Positions 10,926 through 63,236 of a stretch of DNA of 64,000 bases are shown one piece after another. The notes under the pieces were generated by a model. It saw only the letters and a program-made list of their open reading frames with translations. It ran no database searches and was not told the DNA's origin. Within the stretch, counting starts at the first letter, position 1. The number at the start of each line of letters is the position of its first letter. A program made the translations under genes and the position numbers. Source of the DNA: Desulfocapsaceae bacterium (GTDB taxonomy: Bacteria > Desulfobacterota > Desulfobulbia > Desulfobulbales > Desulfocapsaceae); contig JARLHL010000048.1 of assembly GCA_031292275.1 (NCBI GenBank), positions 62,001 to 126,000 of the forward strand. Direction: 5' to 3'.

Positions 10926-11455
10926 AGTACATCCTTTCTTGTATTTCATGCATATCCGCAAGGCCATTTCGGTCCCTTTGGCAAAAGGCCGCCGGAACAG
11001 ACCGGCAGCCCACCAGCATATTCTAACAATCGAACTGCGAAATACAATGATTGATTTCGCCAATTTCCCAGTCTTGCAGCCCCCTCCATCCTTCTTCAGG
11101 TTGGGAAATGCAGGGGCCCGTCTAGCCGCCTGCGAAACGGACTCCGGGCAGTCGACCGGAAGGCTGGCCCCGGGCTGAATCCATCCATCTGATATGGTCT
11201 TTCGTGAAGTGTGCGGGGCTGATTCGTATTGGCCTGTATGTTTGTAAAAAATGTGTTGCTGTAAGGAAATCACTATGCTAGCATGGCTTTTAACATGCTT
11301 TCTCGATCAAGAAATCTTTAATATTCTTGAGAAAAAATTCAGTAATGCGCGCTCGGCCGGATCCAACCGGATTGCAACGACCGGCCCTGGTTTTTTTCAG
11401 CGTTCTGCCGGTCCGATTGATTCCCCGAAAGTATCAGGGAAAGGAGACATATTTT
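10926..11455. other. Divergent intergenic region between ABC transporter and kinase/regulator operon
   Basis: 530 bp with no coding frame I believe. The left part (10926-11180) is GC-rich leader of the ABC transporter gene. From about 11220 it turns AT-rich and holds a possible sigma-54 promoter (11284-11299) that overlaps a small inverted repeat (GCATG, 8 bases, CATGC). A second imperfect inverted repeat built on CAAGAA/TTCTTG follows at about 11309-11330. The kinase start at 11456 has a clear AAAGGAG. Confidence 0.5.
11284..11299 (+). promoter_or_regulatory. Possible sigma-54 (-24/-12) promoter for the kinase/NtrC-type pair
   Basis: TGGC at 11284 and TGCT ending at 11299 give the required GG-N10-GC spacing. 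The -24 box lacks the usual CAC after TGG and the -12 box has ATGC instead of TTGC. The element also reads as an inverted repeat (GCATG...CATGC), so an operator is an equal possibility. The downstream operon encodes a sigma-54 activator, which would fit autoregulation. Confidence 0.35.
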
Positions 11456-12881
11456 ATGAAACGCTTATGGTCGTCCGTCGACCTGAAGGGCAAATCAGCA
11501 ATCCTGGCCGTTATGGGAACGATGATCTGGGTCTCCAACTTTCTGGTCGTGTATCTTGAGATCGAACACATCAACAAGGCGACGGTCAATCTCGAGCGGG
11601 TTGAAGACCTCTACAACACCATCCTCGAAATGCGGCGATATGAGAAAAATTTCCTCCTCTACCAGGGGCAGGAAAACCGCGATCAGGCCATGAGCTATTA
11701 CCAGCACGCCAAAGAAATTTACGGCAGCATTGCCGATTCTCCGGAGACCTTCAGCGCAAAGATCCTCCCCGTACGACAGCTGAACACCACCTTTTCCAGT
11801 TACGGGGGTCTCCTTGAACTGCTGTTGCAATCGACCACCCCCCCCAGTGAGCCGGATCAGGAAAAGATCAGGGTCTCGGGCCGACAGATGGTGGATCTGT
11901 CTCAGGATCTGCTGGATCAGAGCAGAAATATGGTGGCGAAAGCCGCGGCAGGCGCCCTGCGTCTGCCGCTGGTATCCACCGGCCTGATCCTCTGCCTGTT
12001 CATCATCGGTTTTGTGCTGATCTATCGAAAGGTCATCAACCCCCTGATTATGCTGGAGAGGGCCACGGAAAAGATCGGCCGCGGCGATTTCAGCGCCATC
12101 AGCCACCCCGCCCGCATTGAAAGCGAGGTGGACAGGCTGATCCTGGCCTTCAACCGGATGACCGAAGAGCTGGACGCCCGCCAGGAACAGATCATTCATT
12201 CACGCAAGATCGCCTCCCTGGGCACCCTGGTCTCCGGGGTCGCCCATGAACTCAACAACCCGATCAATAATATCATCCTGACCATCGACACTCTGGTCAG
12301 TGGCCGCAAGACCACCGATGAGCGCCGGGCCGCCCTGCTTGACGACATCCTCAACCAGGCCATCCGGGCCAGCGGCATTGTCAAAAATCTGCTGGATTTT
12401 TCCCGGGCCGAAACATCTTCCTTCAGCGATGTGGACATGACGCTGCTCCTTGAAGAAATCTTCAAGATCACCGGCAATGAGATCACGCTGAAAAAGATTG
12501 CCCTGAACAAACAGATCGAACCCGGACTTCCGAAGTTCAGAGGCAACAAGCAGGGCCTGCAGCAGGTCTTCTTCAATCTGGTCATCAATGCGGTCCAGGC
12601 CATGGAAAGCGAAGGCCGCCTGACCGTGAAGGCGGTAACCGACGACAACAAGCGGATCATCGTCTCCATCCAGGACTCGGGAATGGGTATTGCCGAAAAA
12701 GATCTGCCGCATATCTTCGATCCCTTCTTCACCACCAAGGAGGTGGGGCACGGAACCGGACTGGGTCTGTCGGTGAGCTATGGCATCATCAAGAAGCACG
12801 GGGGCCGCATTACCGTGGACAGCCAGCCCGGCAAGGGAACGACCTTTACGGTTATCCTTCCCGGAAGCGGTGAAATAATCG

Positions 12882-12889
<8 letters not shown>
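11456..12889 (+). CDS. Membrane sensor histidine kinase (HAMP, HisKA, HATPase)
   Basis: 477 residues from the ATG at 11456, which has AAAGGAG nine bases upstream; the frame extends 43 codons further 5' without a ribosome site. Membrane helices lie near residues 15-35 and 182-205 and enclose a roughly 140-residue, mostly helical periplasmic sensor. HAMP follows (about 205-260), then HisKA with VAHELNNPINN, then HATPase with NLVINA, DSGMGI and GTGLGLS. The NtrB-like H-box (HELNNP) is the type that usually pairs with sigma-54 regulators. The stop overlaps the start of the next gene by eight bases, so the two form a two-component system. No ligand can be inferred. Confidence 0.93.
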
Positions 12890-14225
<1,336 letters not shown>

Positions 14226-14265: not shown

Positions 14266-15057
14266 TTAGTCCCTGCCGATACAGAAAAGGGCAGCCCTGA
14301 TGTCGTTCTGCAGCAGATCCTGTACCTGGGTCCGTGAATCCTCCATGGGGCCGACCACCAGATCCGCACCCTGGAGTTCAATCTGCAGTTTGCCGGGATC
14401 GAGGTTCGACAGGGTCCGGCCGCTCACCTCGATACCCTTTTCCCTAAAAATGGCAAGCCCGCGCTCCAGGTTCAGGGTCTCCGTGTTCGGAGAGGGACGA
14501 GAGCCCTGGGCCAGGGCAATCAGAACGATATCCGCCGACAATGGCGGAACCAGCCGGATCAAAATCCCCAAGGCCTTTTCCGCCGAGGCGCCGCCATCGG
14601 TGAAGGCTACTATCCGCTGCATGTCTTTCAGATGCCGCATAACCAGCAGTGGAATGCTCTTCTCCGCCTTTCTGGCGACGGCGGCAAAACGGTTGAGCAA
14701 GGCCTTTGGCTCCAGGCCGCGGAACGGTGCTCCGGTAACAACCAGGTCAAAATCGTTCTCCCATGAGTAGCTGGATATCTTTTGAAAAGGCTCTCCGGTG
14801 AGGATGATGGGATTGTCAATATTGGGACACTGGCTTCTTTCCGAGATGACCAGATCCTCAATGTTTTCCTCTGCCTGCTGGCTGGTCTCCCTCTCCCAGG
14901 ACTTCCAGGCCCAGCCAGCGCCGAACGTCATATCCCGTCCCGGCGGGTCAACGACATAGATCGGCTGGATACGGACCTGCGATCCGAGAAAGCAGGCCGT
15001 TCTCAGGGCAATACTTGCTTCCAGGCTGCGATCAACAGCCACAAGAAGTTTCAACAT
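14266..15057 (-). CDS. Universal stress protein, tandem Usp domains
   Basis: 263 residues with two UspA-like halves. The first starts MLKLLVAVDRSLEASIALR (1-19) and ends near VVTGAPF (about 110). The second starts QRIVAFTDGGASAEKAL (about 148) and ends near DLVVGPMED. The glycine-rich ATP-loop of ATP-binding Usp proteins (GxxG-9x-GS) is not clear in either half, so nucleotide binding is uncertain. CAGGAG precedes the ATG. It is the last gene of the TauE operon, 27 bases after the lone receiver, and is probably co-transcribed with it. Confidence 0.85.
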   Translation of the reverse strand: MLKLLVAVDRSLEASIALRTACFLGSQVRIQPIYVVDPPGRDMTFGAGWAWKSWERETSQQAEENIEDLVISERSQCPNIDNPIILTGEPFQKISSYSWENDFDLVVTGAPFRGLEPKALLNRFAAVARKAEKSIPLLVMRHLKDMQRIVAFTDGGASAEKALGILIRLVPPLSADIVLIALAQGSRPSPNTETLNLERGLAIFREKGIEVSGRTLSNLDPGKLQIELQGADLVVGPMEDSRTQVQDLLQNDIRAALFCIGRD

Positions 15058-15084
15058 TTTTCTCTCCTGTCGGGCAAACCTGGA

Positions 15085-15462
15085 TTATCTGCGCACCTTT
15101 TTCCTCGCTTTCTTTACCGCCGCCCGTATTTCGTCCAGGCGGAAGGGTTTGGCGATAAAATCATAGGCCCCGCGGATGAACGACTCTCTGGCCGACTCGA
15201 TGGTCGCATAGCCGGTTATCATAATCACCGCAGAACCGGGGCAGCACTCCTTCACCTTTTCCAGGAAACCCATGCCGTCCACGCCTTCCATCATCAGATC
15301 GGTAATGAAGATATCGAAGCACTGTTCTTCAACCCGCTTGATGGCAGCGGCGCTGCTGGTGAATATTTCGACCTCGTAGCCGTCCTCTTCAAGCTCCGGT
15401 TTCAAACGGTCGCCGACGATCGGCTCATCATCGAGAATACAGATAGTTGATTTATTTGTCAT
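15085..15462 (-). CDS. Single-domain response regulator (lone receiver)
   Basis: 125 residues, a receiver domain and nothing else: D11-D12, phosphoacceptor D55 (IFITDLMM), the conserved threonine in MITGYA and lysine in FIAKPFR. The ATG at 15462 has AGGAG eight bases upstream and overlaps the PEP-synthase-like gene's stop by 11 bases; a GTG at 15471 is too close to that AGGAG to be used. With no output domain, it must act by binding a partner or passing phosphate on. The adjacent phosphohistidine-type protein and Usp protein are the obvious candidates. No kinase is encoded in this operon. Confidence 0.92.
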   Translation of the reverse strand: MTNKSTICILDDEPIVGDRLKPELEEDGYEVEIFTSSAAAIKRVEEQCFDIFITDLMMEGVDGMGFLEKVKECCPGSAVIMITGYATIESARESFIRGAYDFIAKPFRLDEIRAAVKKARKKVRR

Positions 15463-18067
15463 CGCTGTCACTCCTGTTAATTTTGTGATCGCTTGTTGTT
15501 TTGATGTTGTTCGCCTTCATAAACTGCTCAAAGTACAGATCTATGGTGGTATCATCCGTCATCAGGATATCCAGCTGGCGAACAAATCCGATCAGCCGTC
15601 CGATCAGATAAAGGTATTCCTTCATCCGATCGCCCCCGGAGTTGGCGACCCGTGCGATCACCAGATCACCACTTCCCTCCACCTTGAAACCAATTTTTTC
15701 CATGATGGACATCAGCAGCGCGGCCCTCCTCGATCTGCGGCTGATATCCGTCGCCCCCCCGACAAACCTGAAGAATATGGAATTCTTTTCCCGCTCCGCC
15801 CCCAGACGGGCATCCACCACGGTGAAGTGATAGCCCACCCGCAGGGTCAGATTCATATAATCTTCGCCCAGCACCGCCACATTGAGGCCGGCCAGAACCT
15901 GCCCCGCCACCGCGGCGGTCTGGGTGCGAGTGACCCCCGACATCAGCCCTTTGAAGTCGGCGACAATGGGGTCGGTCCTCCAGACATCGGGAGATCCCAT
16001 CCCCGCCCACAATGCCTTCATCGGCTGGGAGGTGATCTGCTCGGGGACCACCCAGCCGCCCTTTCCGCCAGTCTCGTCCAGGCCGCCGCCGATATCGATG
16101 AGGATCAGGTTGAGCGGCAGATTGGCCTTCAGGCGTTTGCCGCCGTGGACCAGCAGGGAAGAGGGCTTTTCCGCTATCTGCAGCAGGGTCTGCACCGACT
16201 TTTCATGGATAAACCGTATGACATCATGAAAGGTCTGGCAGCCCCTGGCGGTAAAATTCGGATCGTCGGGGTCAATCAGCGTCAGCGGCGCAATACGGCG
16301 CAGCAATCGCCTCAGGATCTGAAATTCATACAGGGTCTCAAACAGCGGCCTCTCCAGAAGCTGATGATGCAGCAGTTCATTGATCCTCCCCTCATAAATA
16401 ATGTTGCGCTCCGCGTCGACCGTCACTTCCTGGCCATTTTTCAAGACATCCGTGGCCGATCCGGTATCGACGATAGTGGGGATCCGGAACTCCCTGGCCA
16501 CGGTCGCCATATGACCTGTAGGACTGCCCACGTCGGTGATGACCGCGCTGGCCCTGGGGATTGCCCGCGCCAGCAGCGGAATGCCGTAGCGCGCCACCAG
16601 CACCGCCCCGCTGGGAAACTGTTCCAGGCTGACATTATCGTCAACGATCCAAACCGGACCCGAGCCCACGCCTCGATAGGCGATAACACCCAGATCCCGC
16701 ATCAGGGCCGTCCTCTCCCGAAGCAGCGCCTTCAATTCCGGACTCCGGGCCTGGCCGCCGCGGCTTAAGCCCAGAGGTCTTGCCTGCAGTATCCGCAGCT
16801 GACCTTCCGTATCCAGGCTCCACTCGATATCCATGGGCCGTTTGAAGAAGCGCTCGATCATCAGCGCCGTCTCGACAATGGAGGCGGCCTGGGACGGCGT
16901 CAGACAGGATTCATTCACCCTCTCCGACTCCACATGCGTGGCCTCTTCGGCCCCGCCGAAGGGGACCACCATCCACTTCTTCTCGCTTATCCTCGACTCG
17001 ATTATGGCATAGGGAGGCTTACGGGACACCCGGAACATATCCGCGGCCCCACCCTCCACGACCACAGTCCCCAGCCCCCAGTTGGCCCCCAGCATACAGA
17101 CCTGCTCATCGGGCAGATTGGGGTCCAGGGTATAGGCAACGCCTGCCACCCCGCTCGGGACCATCTGCTGATACAGCACCGCCATGGCCATATCGGAGAA
17201 GGGCACCTGACGCTGAATGCGGTACTCGAGGCTCTCGGGGTTATACATCCCGGCCAGCACCTTTTTATAACTGGACAGGAGTTCCCGAAACGGCACGTTT
17301 AAAAATGAATCATGGAGTCCCGCAAAGCTCATCATCCCGTCTTCGCCCACGCTGCTGCTGCGCACCGAATAAAAACTGGACTCCGGATTCTTCGGGCAGA
17401 TCTTTTCGGCAGCCTTCAGGATTTCCTGGCGCAGGTCCGACGGGATGTCGCCGTTGAGGATCAGCAGCCTGATGCTGTGCGAGGCCGACTCCACCGACTG
17501 CCCGTTCTTACAGCCCTCCATCAGGCCGTCAATCTTTTCAAAGAGATTGTTGAAGGCCAGGTATTTTCGAAAGCCCCCGATGGTGACGACGAAACTCGGC
17601 GGCACGCTGACCTGGGGCAGACTGCTGATTCTGAACAGGTTATAGACCTTGTTGCCCACCGCCTCATCCATGACCTCCTGGATGTCTTCTAGGGCCAGGA
17701 CATTCTGGCCGCTGGGAATGACCAGCTTTCCGGCCAGTTCCAGCCGCAGATGTCTTGCCAGAGACTCGATCACCTTATAGATCTCGAGTTCCTTGTTGTT
17801 TGCTATAAAGTTGAAATTATAGGCACTGCGCAAGACCACCCGTTCAATGGCAGAGACGGTGTCTTCAAGAAATTTCCGGTCAAAAACATACTGGCCTCCC
17901 AGCTTATCCTCCATTTCGGCAATCAACTCCATGGCCCTGTTGTTTTCCTCAAGAATCTGATGAAAACGAACAAAGAGATCGTTGAAGGATATGGCGCTCC
18001 GCGTCCCTCTCCAGGGGATAACCTTCATGAAAAGGGATGCGAGCCGGTCGGCCAGTTTCACCATCAT
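15452..18067 (-). CDS. PEP-synthase-like protein lacking the PEP-binding barrel, with novel C-terminal domain
   Basis: 871 residues. An N-terminal region without a recognised family (1-145) precedes a pyruvate-phosphate-dikinase ATP-grasp domain (about 150-433; key pieces YSVRSSSVGED at 233-243, GVAYTLDP at 309-316, ILQARPL at 426-432). Next comes a mobile phosphohistidine domain (about 487-560) with TDVGSPTGHMATVARE, in which H519 is the likely phosphorylated residue. True PEP synthases and PPDKs then have a large TIM barrel that binds PEP/pyruvate. Here residues 565-871 look unrelated and lack its motifs, so another acceptor seems likely. The gene is translationally coupled to TIGR02186 upstream (TAATG overlap) and to the receiver downstream. 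Confidence 0.85.
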   Translation of the reverse strand: MMVKLADRLASLFMKVIPWRGTRSAISFNDLFVRFHQILEENNRAMELIAEMEDKLGGQYVFDRKFLEDTVSAIERVVLRSAYNFNFIANNKELEIYKVIESLARHLRLELAGKLVIPSGQNVLALEDIQEVMDEAVGNKVYNLFRISSLPQVSVPPSFVVTIGGFRKYLAFNNLFEKIDGLMEGCKNGQSVESASHSIRLLILNGDIPSDLRQEILKAAEKICPKNPESSFYSVRSSSVGEDGMMSFAGLHDSFLNVPFRELLSSYKKVLAGMYNPESLEYRIQRQVPFSDMAMAVLYQQMVPSGVAGVAYTLDPNLPDEQVCMLGANWGLGTVVVEGGAADMFRVSRKPPYAIIESRISEKKWMVVPFGGAEEATHVESERVNESCLTPSQAASIVETALMIERFFKRPMDIEWSLDTEGQLRILQARPLGLSRGGQARSPELKALLRERTALMRDLGVIAYRGVGSGPVWIVDDNVSLEQFPSGAVLVARYGIPLLARAIPRASAVITDVGSPTGHMATVAREFRIPTIVDTGSATDVLKNGQEVTVDAERNIIYEGRINELLHHQLLERPLFETLYEFQILRRLLRRIAPLTLIDPDDPNFTARGCQTFHDVIRFIHEKSVQTLLQIAEKPSSLLVHGGKRLKANLPLNLILIDIGGGLDETGGKGGWVVPEQITSQPMKALWAGMGSPDVWRTDPIVADFKGLMSGVTRTQTAAVAGQVLAGLNVAVLGEDYMNLTLRVGYHFTVVDARLGAEREKNSIFFRFVGGATDISRRSRRAALLMSIMEKIGFKVEGSGDLVIARVANSGGDRMKEYLYLIGRLIGFVRQLDILMTDDTTIDLYFEQFMKANNIKTTSDHKINRSDSDDK

Positions 18068-18834
18068 TAGTGACTGCCTCCCCCCTGCCGGAAGAGCACG
18101 CCCATGAGCAGACCGGCCACCAGGGCGATGACCACCGCCGAGACACCGTAGGTTATCCGCTGATTGGAGGCCAGTTCATTGACCAGTTTCACAAAACCCA
18201 CCTCCCGGACAGTAAGCCTGCCCTCCACATCCTGGCCGGGGATGCCGTTGCTGACGACCGTCACCTTGACCGTATAATTTCCAAGAGAAATCGAGGAGGG
18301 CAATCTGCACACGCCGACGAAATGCTTCTGCCCGTCTTTGAGCGGCGTGTAGGCAACGGAACCGACATTCTCCTGGTAGAGTTCTTCTGATTCCTTCAGC
18401 TTTACAAACATGGAAAAGACTGCATCATGATCGAGATGGGACTCGCTGATGACCAGGTGACTCTTTACCCTCTCCATTCCCAGTCCGAAAGCGGCGACCT
18501 TATCGAGCCACTCCTTTCCATCCGGAACCATCAGAACGTAAAGACTGGGAATATTTTCAAGTTTAACCTTTCCCGTGGTCATCCAGAATACCCCGACCCG
18601 GCCCTTCTCCTCGAATTCATGGGTTGCATCGCGACCATAGATCTCGACGATGACATCATCAGTGGCCTTGATGTCCCCCGCGACTGTCAATTCGCTCCCG
18701 GAAAAAAAGCTGTCCACATTGATAACCTCCGGACGAACGGACAAACCCTCTATCTCCGCGGCTGAGGCCGAATGCGACACCATCGCCAGGCCTGCAGTCA
18801 ATACCATCAATATCATAAATATTTTTCGCTGCAT
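18067..18834 (-). CDS. TIGR02186-family membrane-anchored protein
   Basis: 255 residues with a signal peptide (1-25, cleavage after ASA), a beta-rich extracytoplasmic domain of about 190 residues (starting EGLSVRPEVINVDSFFSG) and a C-terminal helix (about 228-248, VSAVVIALVAGLLMGVLF) followed by a short cytoplasmic tail. The family is annotated as a putative transmembrane protein of unknown function and is repeatedly found beside TauE/SafE permeases, as here (4 bases after the permease stop). A likely role is as a periplasmic partner of the permease. GGAGG ten bases upstream supports the start. Confidence 0.85.
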   Translation of the reverse strand: MQRKIFMILMVLTAGLAMVSHSASAAEIEGLSVRPEVINVDSFFSGSELTVAGDIKATDDVIVEIYGRDATHEFEEKGRVGVFWMTTGKVKLENIPSLYVLMVPDGKEWLDKVAAFGLGMERVKSHLVISESHLDHDAVFSMFVKLKESEELYQENVGSVAYTPLKDGQKHFVGVCRLPSSISLGNYTVKVTVVSNGIPGQDVEGRLTVREVGFVKLVNELASNQRITYGVSAVVIALVAGLLMGVLFRQGGGSH

Positions 18835-18838
18835 GGTC

Positions 18839-19768
18839 TCAATGACCTCCGTGATAGGCTAAAAGATTTTGAGGTTCAACAACCAGACCAAAAAGCATTT
18901 TTACCATGACAAGCAGAACCAGAATGGCAAGATAGATCTTCAGCTGATCATCCTTGAGCCGGGTACTGAACTTAACACCGACCTGGGCCCCGAAGACCGA
19001 CCCGAAAAGCAGGAGCAGGGCCAGGACAAAATCCACGGTCCGATTGGAGACGGCCTGCATGATGGTGACGTTAATGCAGGTAAAGAGGACCTGGAAGAGA
19101 CTGGTGCCGACGACCACATGCATCGGCATCCTCAGGAGGTAGACCATGACCGGAACCATGATGAAGCCGCCGCCGACGCCCATGATGGCCGCCAGGATGC
19201 CAACCAGGGCCCCCAAGGCCAACGGCACCACCGGAGAGAGCACGACCCCCGATTTTTCGAAGTTCGTCTGGTAGGGGAGGCTCTTCAGCAGCCTGGCATA
19301 GGCGGACTCCTTGGTACTGATCTGTACCGGCACCGAGACCTTATTCTTGCGCATCGCCTGCAGGCTTTCCAGCAGCATGTAGCCGCCGACGAAACCGAGC
19401 ATCAGGACATAGGTGACCATGATTAAAAAGTCGGCATTACCCAGCGCCCTGAGAATCTTGATCGCCTGAACGCCCACCGTGCCGCCGATGATGCCGCCGA
19501 TCAGCAGGTAGAGCCCCATCTTGAAATCAACATTTCCCAAACGGTAATGGGCATAGGAACCGGTGGCCGACGCGGCTACAATCTGATTGGAATCCGAGGC
19601 CGCGGCCACCGTCGGCGGGATCCCGAACATGATGAGAAGCGGGGTCATCAAAAATCCTCCCCCGACACCGAAAAGGCCGGACAGCAACCCCACCACAAAT
19701 CCGAGCCCCACGATCAGGGGCAGGGCCACACTATGGTGTGCAATAGGCAAATAGATGTACCAAGGCAT
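18839..19768 (-). CDS. TauE/SafE family sulfite/sulfonate exporter
   Basis: 309 residues from the ATG at 19768 (GGAG five bases upstream; the frame extends 29 codons further without support). The protein has about eight membrane helices and two internally repeated signature loops, GLFGVGGGFLMTPLL (about 33-47) and GILAAIMGVGGGFIMVP, characteristic of TauE/SafE (DUF81). Members move sulfite, sulfoacetate or other organosulfur anions. In a sulfate-reducing lineage, sulfite or a related sulfur oxyanion is the natural guess. It is the first gene of a five-gene operon with TIGR02186, the PEP-synthase-like protein, a receiver and Usp. An 11-bp perfect inverted repeat lies about 100 bp upstream. Confidence 0.9.
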   Translation of the reverse strand: MPWYIYLPIAHHSVALPLIVGLGFVVGLLSGLFGVGGGFLMTPLLIMFGIPPTVAAASDSNQIVAASATGSYAHYRLGNVDFKMGLYLLIGGIIGGTVGVQAIKILRALGNADFLIMVTYVLMLGFVGGYMLLESLQAMRKNKVSVPVQISTKESAYARLLKSLPYQTNFEKSGVVLSPVVPLALGALVGILAAIMGVGGGFIMVPVMVYLLRMPMHVVVGTSLFQVLFTCINVTIMQAVSNRTVDFVLALLLLFGSVFGAQVGVKFSTRLKDDQLKIYLAILVLLVMVKMLFGLVVEPQNLLAYHGGH

Positions 19769-20154
19769 ATTTACTCCATTAAGTAATAGGTTAACTTTGA
19801 CTGCAGCAATGGTTTGTCGTTGACTGTATCCTTCTCTAAGCAAGATCGGGGCCAATACTAATTTTATAAAAATATCATATACTTATTATATTTTTATAGG
19901 CCACCGGAAACAGGCGATGATTGATTATTAAACGTGAAGAGGGGGAGAATTGGTCAATATCAGAATTAGTATTGTATAATCGGAATGTTAACCAATGTTT
20001 AAAAACGAAACGTCCTGAATTGCAGAACAGACCCGGCAGTCGTGCGGCATTCGTGCTTTGACAATGCCAAAATAAACAGATCCCGGATCGAAAAAGGGCG
20101 AAAGGAGGGTGCTACAGGCTGGTACGTGCGGGAAGGAAGATGGCCCGCAAGATC
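19769..20154. other. AT-rich intergenic region upstream of the TauE operon
   Basis: 386 bp, clearly more AT-rich than its surroundings. It lies upstream of TauE (minus strand) and downstream of the triple-PAS kinase, so any promoter should read leftward. It holds the inverted repeat at 19865-19898, listed separately. I see no convincing coding frame or terminator. TATAAT and TTGACA look-alikes occur on the plus strand (about 19975 and 20060), but no gene follows them. Confidence 0.5.
19865..19898. promoter_or_regulatory. Perfect 11-bp inverted repeat upstream of the TauE operon
   Basis: TATAAAAATAT (19865-19875) and its exact reverse complement (19888-19898) flank 12 bases. The site is about 97-130 bp upstream of the TauE start. 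All-AT arms make it a weak RNA hairpin, so a regulator operator or bent-DNA promoter element is more likely. It does not match the FNR, Rex or HcpR sites I know. Confidence 0.4.
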
Positions 20155-23142
20155 TCAGCCATGCAGCACTTCATGGACCCGGACCGCCAATTCGAGTTCA
20201 GTGTAGGGCTTGAAGAGCACGGGAGAAAAGGTAAACTGCCCCACCCTGGGTATGGCCCGTTCAAAATAGCCCGAGGTGAACAGGACCTTCAGGTCCGGAT
20301 TGAGCAGGAGCGCCTGTTCCGCCAGAGCAAAACCGGTCATCCCGCCCGGCATGACCACATCCGCGAAGAGAAGATGAATGGCCGCTCCCTTCTCCAGAAG
20401 CAGGGCCATGGCCTCCTTCCCGTTCCCGGCGGTGAGTGTCGTATAGCCTAAAATTTTCAGCATATCGGCGGCCAGGGCCAGCAGATCGACCTCATCATCG
20501 ACAATGAGGATCGTCTCCTGGCCGCCCGGCAATCCGGGCAGGCCCGGCTTCGCGTCGGGGCTGCCTGTCCGGCCTGGAAGTTCTTCCAGGCTTCTCGGAA
20601 GATACACATGGACGCTCGTGCCCGTGCCCGGCTCCGAATATACCTGGATACCGCCCTTTGATCGTTGCGCAAAGGCATAGACCATGCTCAGGCCGAGCCC
20701 GGTCCCTTTGCCATGGGGTTTGGTCGTGTAAAAAGGCTCAAAAATATGTTCCAGGACCTCGGACGGCATGCCATCTCCCGTATCACTCACAGCCAGGTGG
20801 ACATAGCCTCCGGGTTCCATGCCGGGATTCATCATCGTATAGTATTCATCAAGGATGGCATTGCTGGTCGATATATGGAGCCTGCCGCCCTGGACCATGG
20901 CATCCCTGGCATTGATGATCAGATTCAGCACCACATCCTCAAAATCGCCACTATCGATGACCGTCGTCCACAGGTCGGCAGCCAGATCGGTCATCACCTC
21001 AACCTCAGGGGTCACCGACCTGGCAATCAGATTATCCATCCCCTGCAGGACCGTGTTGATATTGGTAGGCTGGCAATCCCTGGCCTGGTGACTGGAAAAG
21101 TCGAGGAGCTGCCGGGTCAGCGTACTCCCCCTCTCAGAAGCCTTCGATACGGCCTCAAGACGTTTCAGGCTCATTGGGTCCACCGAACCAAAACGCTGGA
21201 TAAAATCGAGATTACCGATGATTATACCAAGAATATTATTGAAATCATGGGCAATACCACCAACGACATGGCCAACGGCATCCATCTTCAACGATCGCTG
21301 GAGGGCCTCTTCAGCCTCTTTCCGATGGGTAATATCACGACCGGCCCCCCGATAGCCCGCAAACCGGCCATCAGCATCGACAATGGGTCTTCCGTCCAGA
21401 ACGATCCGCCGCGGCTTCCCCTCCGACCGCAGCCAGTCGATCTCAAATCCCGAAAAGGGTTCCTGGCGGATGATCCTGGAAAAATTCGCCTTCCAGCTGG
21501 CCGTCTCGTTTCTGCCGCCCTCGAAGAAAACCTGCTGCCAGGTATTTCCAATGAGGTCGTCAGTCTTCCTCCCCAGGATCTCTTCCACCTTGCCGGTAAG
21601 ATAGGTAAAATGCAAGCCCCTGTCCATCTCCCAAAACCAGTCGGCAGCTGAGTTGGCAAAATCACGGAACCTGCTTTCGCTTAGCTGCAGGGCCTGTTCG
21701 GTCTTCTCCCGGATGCTGAGATCTTCGAGAAAGAACAGCAGACATTCAACCCCGGAAAAGAGGACCTTCCGGCCCCTGAGCATGCAGCTTACCTTTTGTC
21801 CGGACTGTATTCGTATTTTTACAGGAAATCCCTCCACACGACCCTCCCGGGCCACCGCTGCCATGATCCGCGAATGGTCTTCATCGCTGCCCCAAAACCC
21901 GAGATCCGCCAAGGTTCGGCTCAGGAGTTCCTGCTTCCGATATCCGGTCTGCTGCAGGCAGGGAAGATTGACGTCGATGAGCTGGCTGGCCTTGCCGTCC
22001 AGGATCATGATCATCATCGGACTGGCATTGAAGGCCTCCTCAAAGCGGTGCTGAGCTGCCACCAATTCGTTTTCGACCGCCTTGCGCAGGGTAATATCCC
22101 GGCTGATCCCGATCAAACCCAGGACCTCGCCGTTTTCATCCCGATACACGGTCTTCAGGGTATCAAGGAGGACCTTTCTGCCATCGGGATAGCGGACCCA
22201 TTCCTCATTGCTCCGGGGGCCGCCCATCGCAAACATTTTCTTATCCTGATCGCAGAAGAACTCCGCCTCTTCGCGAGAAAAAAGATCAAAGTCAGTGCGG
22301 CCGACCAGCTCATGCATTTTCCAGCCGGAGAATTCTTCGAAGGCGGTATTGCAGCCGAGGAACACCCCTTCGGTGTCCTTATAAAAAATGAGGTCCGGAA
22401 TCGAATTGATCAGGGCGGTGAGCAGCAGACGTTCTTTGATTCGCAGGGCCTCCGCCTCTTTTCTCTGGAGCAGCGTCCGAACCAGACGCTGATGCAACAT
22501 GCCCAGTGCCGAAACCAGCAGCTCCAGCTCCGGGAAGCCGGCGCCCTTCTCCGGCCAAACGGCAGGAGCGGGAGGATCAGGGCCCTCAAGCCGCAGGCCT
22601 TCAATGGAGCGGGTCAATGCGGCAAGAGGAAAGATCAGGGAGGTCCGGATACGTATAAAAAGACCTCCCGACAGCGCCGCGGCAAAGAGCATCATGCCCA
22701 GGAAGAACTGCAGGCCTCTTTTCCAGGCCAGGACGCGAAGATATTCCGGATCGCCCGAAAGGGTCAGCACAGTGGCAGAATCAATGCCGTTAACGGTGAT
22801 CGAAAAGTCTTTCCGGATCAGCCCCGGCTTGTCCGGGGCGCCGCCCCTGACTGCAATCCGTCCCTGGAGGTTTGAGCCCTGCACCTGCACCGACAAGAAG
22901 GGATACAGGCTGGCCATCCCCTGTACCGCCGCCTCACATCGGGTCGAGTCCTGAGCAAGACCATCCACCAGTTCCGCAGACAGCAGCCCGCCCAGAGAAG
23001 AGAGAGTCAAGTCCATCTGCAGCAGGTCCTCCCTGTAGCCCCAGAAAGAACAGACCACGGCAACCAGCAGAGAAAGAACGCCGCCAAACGCCACGGTATA
23101 GACAAGGATCAGCCTGGCAATTCGTGTATGTTTCACAGACAC
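20155..23142 (-). CDS. Membrane-bound hybrid histidine kinase with three PAS domains and C-terminal receiver
   Basis: 995 residues from a GTG at 23142, five bases after AGGAGG; the open frame extends 38 codons upstream with no such site. Two membrane helices (about 10-32 and 145-165) flank a periplasmic sensor. Then come three PAS modules (about 250-370, 380-490, 500-620; the first with PDLIFYKDTEGVFLG, the third with ADWFWEMDRG), HisKA with GIAHDFNNILG, HATPase with NLIINARDAM and GTGLGLS, and a receiver (about 875-990) with phosphoacceptor in LLFADVVMPGG. The hybrid ends in a receiver with no Hpt, so an external phosphotransfer protein is needed. No partner gene is adjacent. Confidence 0.92.
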   Translation of the reverse strand: MSVKHTRIARLILVYTVAFGGVLSLLVAVVCSFWGYREDLLQMDLTLSSLGGLLSAELVDGLAQDSTRCEAAVQGMASLYPFLSVQVQGSNLQGRIAVRGGAPDKPGLIRKDFSITVNGIDSATVLTLSGDPEYLRVLAWKRGLQFFLGMMLFAAALSGGLFIRIRTSLIFPLAALTRSIEGLRLEGPDPPAPAVWPEKGAGFPELELLVSALGMLHQRLVRTLLQRKEAEALRIKERLLLTALINSIPDLIFYKDTEGVFLGCNTAFEEFSGWKMHELVGRTDFDLFSREEAEFFCDQDKKMFAMGGPRSNEEWVRYPDGRKVLLDTLKTVYRDENGEVLGLIGISRDITLRKAVENELVAAQHRFEEAFNASPMMIMILDGKASQLIDVNLPCLQQTGYRKQELLSRTLADLGFWGSDEDHSRIMAAVAREGRVEGFPVKIRIQSGQKVSCMLRGRKVLFSGVECLLFFLEDLSIREKTEQALQLSESRFRDFANSAADWFWEMDRGLHFTYLTGKVEEILGRKTDDLIGNTWQQVFFEGGRNETASWKANFSRIIRQEPFSGFEIDWLRSEGKPRRIVLDGRPIVDADGRFAGYRGAGRDITHRKEAEEALQRSLKMDAVGHVVGGIAHDFNNILGIIIGNLDFIQRFGSVDPMSLKRLEAVSKASERGSTLTRQLLDFSSHQARDCQPTNINTVLQGMDNLIARSVTPEVEVMTDLAADLWTTVIDSGDFEDVVLNLIINARDAMVQGGRLHISTSNAILDEYYTMMNPGMEPGGYVHLAVSDTGDGMPSEVLEHIFEPFYTTKPHGKGTGLGLSMVYAFAQRSKGGIQVYSEPGTGTSVHVYLPRSLEELPGRTGSPDAKPGLPGLPGGQETILIVDDEVDLLALAADMLKILGYTTLTAGNGKEAMALLLEKGAAIHLLFADVVMPGGMTGFALAEQALLLNPDLKVLFTSGYFERAIPRVGQFTFSPVLFKPYTELELAVRVHEVLHG

Positions 23143-23393
23143 GGCACCCTCCTGAGGCCTTATGCCATTTTTTCCGGTCTGTCTTCTTTGACAGAGGGGA
23201 AAAAAAGAGCAAAATACAATAAGGAAGTATACCTGCTCTACCTCCACCGGCAACATATTTAACCGGGCCGGAGAAGGGCATTGAGCAGAAATATGCGCAG
23301 ATGGGCAGGTTCCGGCCGAAAGATCCGCGGATATGACCGGCTGAGCTCGTGAGTCTTTTTTATGCCGCTGGCTCTTTTCTCACATATTTGGCT

Positions 23394-53952: not shown

Positions 53953-53968
53953 TGGCACAACTCTTGCT
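53953..53968 (+). promoter_or_regulatory. Sigma-54 promoter of nifV
   Basis: TGGCACAACTCTTGCT has the full -24 TGGCAC and -12 TTGCT boxes at GG-N10-GC spacing, an exact match to the consensus. Transcription should begin near 53980, about 76 bases before the nifV ATG. Confidence 0.9.
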
Positions 53969-54055: not shown

Positions 54056-55171
54056 ATGGAAAAACCGGTACATTTGATAGACACCACCTTACGAGAGGGT
54101 GAACAGTCGGTGGGGATCTCTTTCACCACCCCTCAGAAGAAGGCCATCATCAACGGACTGGCCCTGGTCGGCGTGTCGGAGCTGGAGGCGGGCATCGCCT
54201 CGTCATTTGGCAGCGACCTTCAGGAAATCATCGACTTCTGCCGCAGGCACCATCCGCAGCTGATGACATCGCTCTGGTGCAGATGCAGAAAAAAGGACAT
54301 CCTTGCTGCAGCATCCCTCGGCCCCGACCGGCTGTCCCTGTCCATCCCTGTGTCCGATCTGCACCTGACCAGGAGGCTCGGCAAGAACCGCTCCTGGGCA
54401 GAAGACACCATGGTGTCCGCCATCGATTTTTCCCGGCAGAAGAGGCTGGCAGTCTCCATAGGTTTTGAGGATGCTACCCGGGCGGCGCGGGATTTCCTCC
54501 ACCACATGGCCCGACGTGCTGAACAGGCCGGGGCCTTTCGTATCCGGCTGGCCGACACCGTAGGCCAGGCAACCCCGACGACAATGATTGCGCTGGTGAC
54601 GGAGATGAAAAAATCCCTGCAGAAATGCGAGCTGGCCGTCCACACCCACAACGACTTCGGAATGGCTACAGCCAACGCCATGGCAGCCCTGGACGCCGGC
54701 GCAGGCTGGGCCGATGTCACCATTCTGGGCCTGGGAGAACGGGCAGGATGCGCACGCCTGGAAGAACTGGCCGGTTACCTTGGAATAATGCGATCAGCGC
54801 CGGGGATCGATGCCCGGTATCTCAAACCCCTGGCGGCCTCCGTCTCCGGTATCATCGCCACAACGAGAGAGGACTACCGCCCCCTCGTCGGCGACAAGAT
54901 CTTCACCTGTGAGACGGGACTCCACCTGCAGGGTCTGCAGAAGGACCCGTCCACCTATGAACCCTACCCCCCTGAATTGGTCGGGGCGACAAGACGCCTT
55001 CTGCTGGGTGCCAAATGCGGCAGACAGGCGTTGAAAACCAGGCTTGCCGAGCTCGGACATACCCTTGATGACGACCAGCTCCTCCAGAAGACACGGACCT
55101 TGAGAGACCGGGCCGCCCTCTCTGGCCGAAGCCTGGATGACCAGGAAATCCTCGCCCATATTCTGTCTTGA
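54056..55171 (+). CDS. nifV: Homocitrate synthase
   Basis: 371 residues. It condenses acetyl-CoA with 2-oxoglutarate to homocitrate, the organic ligand of the nitrogenase FeMo cofactor. The HMGL-like barrel has IDTTLREGEQSVG (8-20), the metal histidines in HTHNDFGMATAN (about 194-205), and GLGERAGCARLEELAG. The length is NifV-like and lacks the leucine-binding regulatory domain of isopropylmalate synthase. The consensus sigma-54 promoter upstream and nifA next door support the nitrogen-fixation role. nifHDK are not in the window. Confidence 0.92.
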   Translation: MEKPVHLIDTTLREGEQSVGISFTTPQKKAIINGLALVGVSELEAGIASSFGSDLQEIIDFCRRHHPQLMTSLWCRCRKKDILAAASLGPDRLSLSIPVSDLHLTRRLGKNRSWAEDTMVSAIDFSRQKRLAVSIGFEDATRAARDFLHHMARRAEQAGAFRIRLADTVGQATPTTMIALVTEMKKSLQKCELAVHTHNDFGMATANAMAALDAGAGWADVTILGLGERAGCARLEELAGYLGIMRSAPGIDARYLKPLAASVSGIIATTREDYRPLVGDKIFTCETGLHLQGLQKDPSTYEPYPPELVGATRRLLLGAKCGRQALKTRLAELGHTLDDDQLLQKTRTLRDRAALSGRSLDDQEILAHILS

Positions 55172-57404: not shown

Positions 57405-57500
57405 TCTGAAAGCAATTGTGCACTATTTTTTAATTCAAACATAATTGTATTAGGTGTGTGTTAATTCATTCACCCTCAACCAAGAGAAAATCCTGCATAT

Positions 57501-57516
57501 GGCACGACCTTTGCTC
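57501..57516 (+). promoter_or_regulatory. Sigma-54 promoter of the permease
   Basis: TGGCACGACCTTTGCT is an exact consensus match, with GG and GC ten bases apart. The predicted start is near 57527. It is 271 bases upstream of the permease ATG. Confidence 0.9.
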
Positions 57517-61985: not shown

Positions 61986-63236
61986 ATGAACAGCACAACG
62001 ATGCAGATTTTCTGGACCCTGATCTGCTCCTTTCTCGTCATCATGATGCAGGTGGGATTAGCTATGGTGGCCACAGGCTTTACCCGGGCCAAGAACGCCG
62101 GCCATACCATGGCCACGACCATGATGATCGCGGCCATCGGGGCCCTCGGCTACTGGGCCGCGGGCTACGCCCTGCAGACCGGCACCGGGGCATTCTTCCT
62201 CTCCGACATTCCCGCCGAAACCCTGTGCATCTTCGTCTTCCAGGCAATGCTGGTCAATATCGCGGCCACCGTCCCCACCGGCGCCATGGCCGAACGATGG
62301 GCCTTCAAGTCCTTCATCGTCTACGGCTTCTTCATGACCATGTTCACCTACCCCCTCTATGCGCGCTGGGTATGGAACGGCGGCTGGCTTTCGCAGTTGG
62401 GCAGGATTTACGGCCTGGGCCATGGGGTGCTTGACTTTGCCGGCTCATCGGTGGTGCATATGGCAGGCGGCGTCTCGGCCCTGGCAGGGGCCATGGTCAT
62501 CGGGCCGCGCATGGGAAAATACAAGGGCGACGGAACGCCGGGGGCCATCCCCGGACATCATATTCCCATGGCCATTATCGGCTGCATGCTGCTCTTCTTC
62601 GGCTGGTTCGGCTTCACCTCCGGGCAGGCCGCAATCGGCGGCGATTTCCAGGTCGGCCTCATCGCCGTCAACACCCTGCTGGCGGCGGCGGGCGGAGCCT
62701 TCTCGGCCCTCTGCTATATGTGGTTCTTCTACGGCAGGCCCGATCTGTCCCTGTCCGCAAACGGACTTCTGGGCGGACTGGTGGCCATTTCCGCCTCCTG
62801 CGCCTTCGTGAATCCGTTCGCAGCGGTCCTTATCGGGATCTGCGCTGGCATCCTCTGCTGCGCCTGCGTCTTTTTCATCGAGCGCACATGCAGGATCGAT
62901 GATCCCGCAGGGGCGATATCGGTCCACGGCGCCTGCGGCGCCTGGGGCCTTCTCAGCCTAGGCTTTTTCGCCGACGGCAAATACGGCAACGGGCTGAATT
63001 CCGTCTCCGGCACGGTGAAGGGACTGTTCTACGGCGGCGCCTCCCAGCTGGCTGCCCAGTGTTGCGGCGTGCTTGCCTGTTTCCTCTTCGTCTTCGCCGT
63101 GATGTTCACCTTCTTCAAGGTCCTGGACCGCATTACCCCTCTGCGGGTCCCGGAAGAGGTGGAGTTCGAAGGCCTGGATCAGAACGAGGTCTCCGTGGTC
63201 GCCTACCCCGACTTCAACACCAAATCGCGCCGCTGA
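61986..63236 (+). CDS. amt: Ammonium transporter
   Basis: 416 residues with about 11 helices. It takes up ammonium through a pore with a twin-histidine centre, here in DFAGSSVVHMAGGVSAL (about 150-166) and ISVHGACGAWGLLSLG (about 308-323). GGAGG precedes the ATG. glnK (PII), which usually sits with amt, is not next to it. It is probably co-transcribed with the kinase/phosphatase and SMR-like genes (13-base gap). Confidence 0.95.
   Translation: MNSTTMQIFWTLICSFLVIMMQVGLAMVATGFTRAKNAGHTMATTMMIAAIGALGYWAAGYALQTGTGAFFLSDIPAETLCIFVFQAMLVNIAATVPTGAMAERWAFKSFIVYGFFMTMFTYPLYARWVWNGGWLSQLGRIYGLGHGVLDFAGSSVVHMAGGVSALAGAMVIGPRMGKYKGDGTPGAIPGHHIPMAIIGCMLLFFGWFGFTSGQAAIGGDFQVGLIAVNTLLAAAGGAFSALCYMWFFYGRPDLSLSANGLLGGLVAISASCAFVNPFAAVLIGICAGILCCACVFFIERTCRIDDPAGAISVHGACGAWGLLSLGFFADGKYGNGLNSVSGTVKGLFYGGASQLAAQCCGVLACFLFVFAVMFTFFKVLDRITPLRVPEEVEFEGLDQNEVSVVAYPDFNTKSRR

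Follow-up and report, generated by a model that had tools for sequence, protein, structure and literature searches.

A TauE/SafE operon with a PEP-synthase-like swivel dikinase and a stand-alone receiver in bacteria with dissimilatory sulfite reductase

In the swivel dikinase superfamily, which includes phosphoenolpyruvate (PEP) synthase, pyruvate phosphate dikinase (PPDK), rifampin phosphotransferase and the HpeHI aromatic dikinases, the acceptor is set by a domain other than the ATP-grasp and swivel domains (PMC12167813). Fusions of a receiver to PPDK are reported from both Bacteroides and Heimdallarchaeota (PMC5847659), so the coupling of a receiver to a PPDK-type enzyme has precedent. In the sulfur bacteria, the cluster DVU0539-0545 of D. 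vulgaris comprises a histidine kinase and response regulator, Usp and a putative sulfate exporter and as a cluster has molybdate phenotypes (PMC10102598), and GF1_10730, GF1_10760 and GF1_10800 of Desulfolithobacter dissulfuricans GF1 are thiosulfate-disproportionation-specific proteins (PMC9751629). The present study concerns an operon of five genes in a Desulfocapsaceae bacterium, situated in positions 62,001 to 126,000 of contig JARLHL010000048.1 (assembly GCA_031292275.1), a stretch of 64,000 nucleotides referred to here as the window. As in the TauE/SafE-TIGR02186 pair, a permease adjoins a membrane-anchored partner; here the two are joined by a PEP-synthase-like (PEPS) dikinase, a receiver and a Usp-domain protein, with a probable sigma-54 system. 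Unlike the receiver-PPDK fusions, the receiver and the dikinase are separate proteins of one operon. No description of this gene combination, and no mention of TIGR02186, was found in the literature searched.

We interpret the locus, with a probability of about 0.5, as a sigma-54-controlled sulfur-oxyanion transport-and-signalling operon of sulfite- or sulfate-respiring bacteria, containing a new kind of swivel dikinase that is coupled to a receiver. The five genes run along the minus strand, spaced by a 4-bp gap, overlaps of 1 bp and 11 bp and a 27-bp gap, in agreement with an earlier note on this DNA. The unit drawn in that note was, however, too small, as it left out a histidine kinase/NtrC pair at 11444-14225 that belongs to it by conserved neighbourhood. 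The two genes of this pair are on the plus strand, convergent with the operon, and the NtrC gene ends 40 bp from the operon end. The features are as follows.

18839..19768, minus strand: tauE, TauE/SafE-family permease of 309 aa (PF01925, hydropathy, conservation in 45 orthologues)
18067..18834, minus strand: TIGR02186-like protein (PF09608 match, transmembrane segments, invariant residues)
15452..18067, minus strand: PEPS-like swivel dikinase of 871 aa (PPDK_N and PEP-utilizers domains, alignments, predicted structure)
15085..15462, minus strand: stand-alone receiver (REC) of 125 aa with an ATG start (PF00072 match, orthologue conservation)
14266..15057, minus strand: Usp-domain protein of 263 aa (PF00582 match)
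12882..14225, plus strand: NtrC-type sigma-54 activator, REC-AAA-HTH (Pfam, conserved neighbourhood)
11444..12889, plus strand: membrane histidine kinase with helical periplasmic sensor, HAMP, HisKA and HATPase (Pfam, transmembrane prediction)
19839..19854, minus strand: sigma-54 -24/-12 promoter-like site TGGCCCCGATCTTGCT, 71-86 nt upstream of the tauE ATG

To our knowledge, the sensing and control of sulfite, a toxic central intermediate, is poorly known in sulfate reducers. The conserved operon offers a concrete and testable entry to this control; in it, a probable transporter for sulfur anions is combined with a sigma-54 switch and with a phosphotransfer enzyme of a new type.

The PEPS-like dikinase and its C-terminal domain

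The PEPS-like protein consists of a helical N-terminal segment (residues 1-120), an ATP-grasp domain (approximately 123-434), a phospho-histidine swivel domain (484-554) and a novel C-terminal domain (approximately 570-855), all residue numbers, including those of the C-terminal domain, referring to the full-length 871-aa protein. The front half matches PPDK_N (PF01326, 226.5 bits) and PEP-utilizers (PF00391, 65.2 bits). When the protein is aligned with PEP synthases and rifampin phosphotransferase of solved structure, the catalytic residues K140, R236, E415, Q428, R430 and His519 fall in position; all are conserved in the family and the swivel His519 is invariant in 45 aligned members. ATP-grasp and swivel thus follow in the same order as in PEP synthase and PPDK, with the catalytic residues kept, but the protein is without the TIM barrel that binds pyruvate/PEP and has in its place an unmatched domain of about 300 residues with invariant residues of its own, as well as an extra helical N-terminus.

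An ordinary PEP synthase beside unrelated stress genes is what automatic annotation through the PPDK_N and PEP-utilizers domains would suggest. This reading is refuted on domain content and very improbable. The barrel (PEP-utilizers_C, PF02896) gave no Pfam match in the protein even at E=10, and the C-terminal domain matched no PEP-synthase model in 98 family members. The two PEP-synthase equivalog models scored far below their cut-offs (286.3 versus 598 bits and 279.2 versus 739.75 bits), with matches reaching only to about residue 571. Judged by its sequence, the protein is not a PEP synthase, because the PEP/pyruvate domain is missing, and the earlier description of it as a PEP-synthase-like phosphotransfer protein, with ATP-grasp and swivel retained and the barrel gone, was apt. 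Since present libraries recognise the PEPS family only in its PEP-synthase-like front half, its members are probably read as PEP synthases.

Credible structural matches of the full-length predicted model, namely to PEP synthase, rifampin phosphotransferase, HpeI and PPDK, likewise cover the front half only, and no rifampin-type substrate-binding domain was found, credible matches being confined to ATP-grasp and swivel. Searches with the C-terminal domain of the window protein or 97 relatives gave no credible match in Pfam or NCBIfam, and its sequence none in the PDB. A confident AlphaFold model of the domain (pLDDT 87, pTM 0.80) retrieved nothing significant from the PDB using Foldseek (best E 0.007, query TM about 0.2). 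A RecJ/AlaRS C-Ala (DHHA1-like) fold was considered and rejected (E at least 0.007, query TM about 0.2, root-mean-square deviation >9 Å). No relative was found on the plasmids searched. Across 98 sequences, 13 residues of the domain are invariant, including C610, H614, D615, R618, H621, E622, H747, R781 and D833, and D801 is also listed among the conserved residues; on this pattern, the invariant residues look like an active or binding site.

The PEPS-like protein shares the swivel dikinase principle and a non-pyruvate acceptor domain with rifampin phosphotransferase and HpeHI, but its acceptor domain is a different one, without a match and located after the swivel domain, and its setting is two-component signalling and phosphatases rather than drug or aromatic catabolism. 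Given the role of the additional domain in setting the acceptor in this superfamily, we expect the protein to be a dikinase with a non-assigned acceptor. The ATP-grasp domain would phosphorylate His519, as the domains and catalytic residues suggest, and the swivel would deliver this phosphate to the C-terminal domain, where pyruvate would be a less likely acceptor than a protein or a regulatory target. The receiver is encoded by a gene that overlaps the dikinase gene and may turn the enzyme on or off in trans.

Conserved gene order, paralogues and partners

Conservation of the order was examined in a set of about 80 loci, picked through the PEPS gene from the genome of the window, its relatives and the wider phylum. 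Of the 52 PF09608 loci among them, 45 have the order TauE-PF09608-PEPS-REC; contig ends, frameshifts or stray open reading frame calls interrupt most of the others. Usp directly follows the module in 25 of the 45 loci and precedes tauE in 19, while 33 have an NtrC regulator and a histidine kinase of the window sensor family near the module. As counts from loci selected through PEPS are biased, we recounted from all PF09608 genes in an even sampling of the phylum (297 genomes), which gave 59 genes in 51 genomes. A PEPS-like gene follows PF09608 on the same strand in 42 of these (42 genomes, 26 families); 16 of the 17 remaining loci have TauE ahead of PF09608, and nine have Usp directly behind it. 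The genes put forward in the earlier note are thus a conserved unit rather than scattered, and the pairing of TauE with a TIGR02186-type gene, which it had taken as established, recurs in nearly every PF09608 locus seen. The true core is TauE-PF09608, often accompanied by Usp and the histidine kinase/NtrC pair, with PEPS-REC as a cassette that is frequently present within it. Of the whole unit, Usp is conserved least. Directly upstream of the operon is a hybrid multi-PAS histidine kinase with a receiver (20155-23256, minus strand), which was not conserved in the neighbourhoods examined.

These counts also bear on a reading in which TauE-TIGR02186-Usp and PEPS-REC are independent units, brought together since both answer one sulfur-respiration signal. 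Loci with TauE-TIGR02186 but no co-directional PEPS gene do exist, as do PEPS subfamilies away from TauE-TIGR02186, but the start/stop overlaps of 1 bp and 11 bp argue for a tighter link, as does the near-single clade formed by PEPS proteins of the TauE-PF09608 context (three label changes on the tree versus 37.8 when shuffled). We regard independent units as unlikely. Two loci (L150 and L151) have TauE-PF09608 pairs convergent with a PEPS gene on the opposite strand, in which the association is therefore kept without co-transcription.

The window's genome encodes three further PEPS-type paralogues (four in total), and some other genomes at least seven. In one sister subfamily, PEPS is directly followed by a dual-specificity-phosphatase (DSP)-like gene, often with NtrC (11 loci: L037, L038, L041-L044, L050, L051, L055, L074 and L075). 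In another, PEPS genes, mostly as tandem pairs, adjoin a calcineurin-type (PPP) phosphatase gene that is nearly always convergent (11 loci: L059-L061, L066, L070, L071, L073, L098, L102, L105 and L108). A third context comprises clusters of histidine kinase, REC, a TauE of about 425 aa, a 230-aa protein, PEPS and REC. One cluster in the window's genome (L045, contig C3) has the order histidine kinase, REC, TauE (425 aa), a 230-aa membrane protein without a Pfam match, PEPS, REC and PEPS. Several of the PEPS-DSP loci also hold a histidine kinase, REC and a molybdopterin oxidoreductase.

Because PEPS repeatedly adjoins phosphatase genes and receivers, a regulatory role in reversible phosphorylation appears to be favoured over a metabolic one. 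The contrary reading, that PEPS is a metabolic small-molecule dikinase acting on a compound imported or to be exported by TauE, with REC, Usp and histidine kinase/NtrC controlling expression only, draws on the adjoining transporter gene and on the closest folds with a non-pyruvate acceptor domain, which are small-molecule dikinases (PMC12167813). It fits less well with several paralogues per genome that have different transporters and lie beside protein-phosphatase-like genes, or with a closest partner that is a stand-alone receiver without DNA-binding output, and we consider it rather doubtful. Beyond the operon, it is possible, if tentative, that these proteins are an undescribed family of ATP-driven swivel dikinases whose acceptor domain is new. 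Its several paralogues in a genome, each having a separate partner (a receiver with a TauE transporter, a DSP-type phosphatase or a calcineurin-type one), would then make up a network of reversible phosphorylation that only bacteria with dissimilatory sulfite reductase possess.

Link to dissimilatory sulfite reduction

The PEPS family extends well beyond the operon, its C-terminal domain being present in 107 of the 297 sampled genomes, compared to 144 with dsrA (true dsrA being accepted at E below 1e-100). Both were found together in 102 of the 107 genomes (Fisher p=3e-38), and the five genomes in which dsrA was not found are 62-80% complete. PF09608 showed a similar pattern, co-occurring with dsrA in 50 of 51 genomes (p=5e-17), and the window's own genome has dsrA. 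By family, PEPS was present in approximately 38 of 51 dsrA families and in none of approximately 43 others, the family totals being deduced from label numbering. The PEPS family is practically confined to genomes with dissimilatory sulfite reductase, so that the co-occurrence with sulfate/sulfite respiration raised in the earlier note was observed for it, and the conserved, switch-controlled gene set suggests that sulfur respiration is connected with a layer of control so far unrecognised.

Several points weigh against the operon as a sulfur-oxyanion transport-and-signalling system. The support for it is computational throughout, with the sulfur-anion substrate resting on family name and distribution, and the dsrA correlation is confounded by phylogeny, as lineages inherit both. 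A co-directional PEPS gene is lacking in 17 of the 59 even-sample PF09608 loci, and transport therefore does not need PEPS. No REC-PEPS fusion was present among 116 PEPS genes examined. In addition, the disproportionation-specific Usp and REC proteins of D. dissulfuricans belong to another locus (L135) and not to the operon, which its genome (G405) carries at approximately 3.55 Mb (L127). The earlier proposal, in which sulfur-anion transport is tied to a signalling or phosphotransfer module, is thus borne out in part: conservation, distribution, promoter and domains agree with it, while the TauE substrate, the acceptor of the dikinase and the action of the receiver and Usp on the dikinase are what we infer.

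An assignment of GF1_10730, GF1_10760 and GF1_10800 to this operon by locus-tag arithmetic was rejected, since counting from the dct genes maps the tags to a cluster near 1.207-1.217 Mb, within L135 (approximately 1.205-1.217 Mb). This locus contains histidine kinases/NtrC, Usp, a cytidylate-kinase-like domain fused to a receiver, a histidine kinase, a lone REC, two CitMHS/Na_sulph_symp-type transporters and Usp. It is likely the thiosulfate-disproportionation-specific GF1_10730-10800 cluster, and has a histidine kinase of the same sensor family as that of the window, without PEPS. Like the operon, DVU0539-0545 and GF1_10730-10800 combine a histidine kinase/response regulator pair, one or more anion transporters and Usp in one cluster, the latter also with a lone receiver, but their transporters are of PSE or CitMHS/Na_sulph_symp type rather than TauE-TIGR02186, and no PEPS-like dikinase is among the listed genes. 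DVU0539-0545 and L135 show that sulfur bacteria build similar anion-transporter/Usp/two-component sets; they are analogues and not direct evidence for this operon.

Transporter, accessory proteins and probable sigma-54 control

The tauE product matches PF01925 with 172.6 bits (cut-off 32.6) and has about 7-8 transmembrane segments, seven hydrophobic stretches being counted by hydropathy. Its C-terminus ends in GGH, both glycines being invariant and the final histidine present in at least 90% of the 45 orthologues. The TIGR02186-like protein passes the PF09608 cut-off (137.5 versus 24.5 bits) but fails that of the NCBI TIGR02186 hypoth_equivalog model (70.5 versus 255.25 bits), and by these scores is a divergent member belonging to the TIGR02186 superfamily and not to the equivalog. 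It is predicted to have an N-terminal signal or anchor, a periplasmic domain and a C-terminal transmembrane helix (transmembrane segments at residues 5-23 and 230-248), and its last histidine is invariant in orthologues. Together with TauE it would form one transporter, most likely for sulfite, thiosulfate or another sulfur oxyanion.

The receiver, of the stand-alone CheY/Spo0F-like type, matches Response_reg (PF00072) with 87.4 bits and has no output domain. Asp11, Asp12, Asp55, Thr83 and Lys105 are invariant in 45 orthologues, leaving the phosphorylation site intact. The protein previously called a tandem Usp has one recognisable Usp domain (PF00582, 37.1 bits, residues 3-133), but its second half is unrecognised or degenerate, so that it would be tandem by length only, and the Usp ATP-binding motif G-2x-G-9x-G(S/T) is absent from it. 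Usp proteins might bring stress or ligand input to the system, which is the weakest part of the proposed mechanism.

Sigma-54 control of the operon is probable, based on the -24/-12 site upstream of tauE and its counterparts elsewhere. Strong sites were found upstream of 22 of 49 orthologous operons versus 1.1% of shuffled sequences, and the search of the 64-kb window returned three matches versus 0.36 expected. The histidine kinase has transmembrane segments at residues 16-34 and 172-190, and its sensor family recurs beside the module in other loci; judging from the neighbourhood and the promoter site, it would sense a periplasmic cue and activate the tauE promoter via its NtrC partner. The two other near-consensus sites in the window (53953-53968 and 57500-57515, both on the plus strand) precede genes with starts at 54110 and 57787; the second of these genes apparently encodes an amino-acid-permease-like protein.

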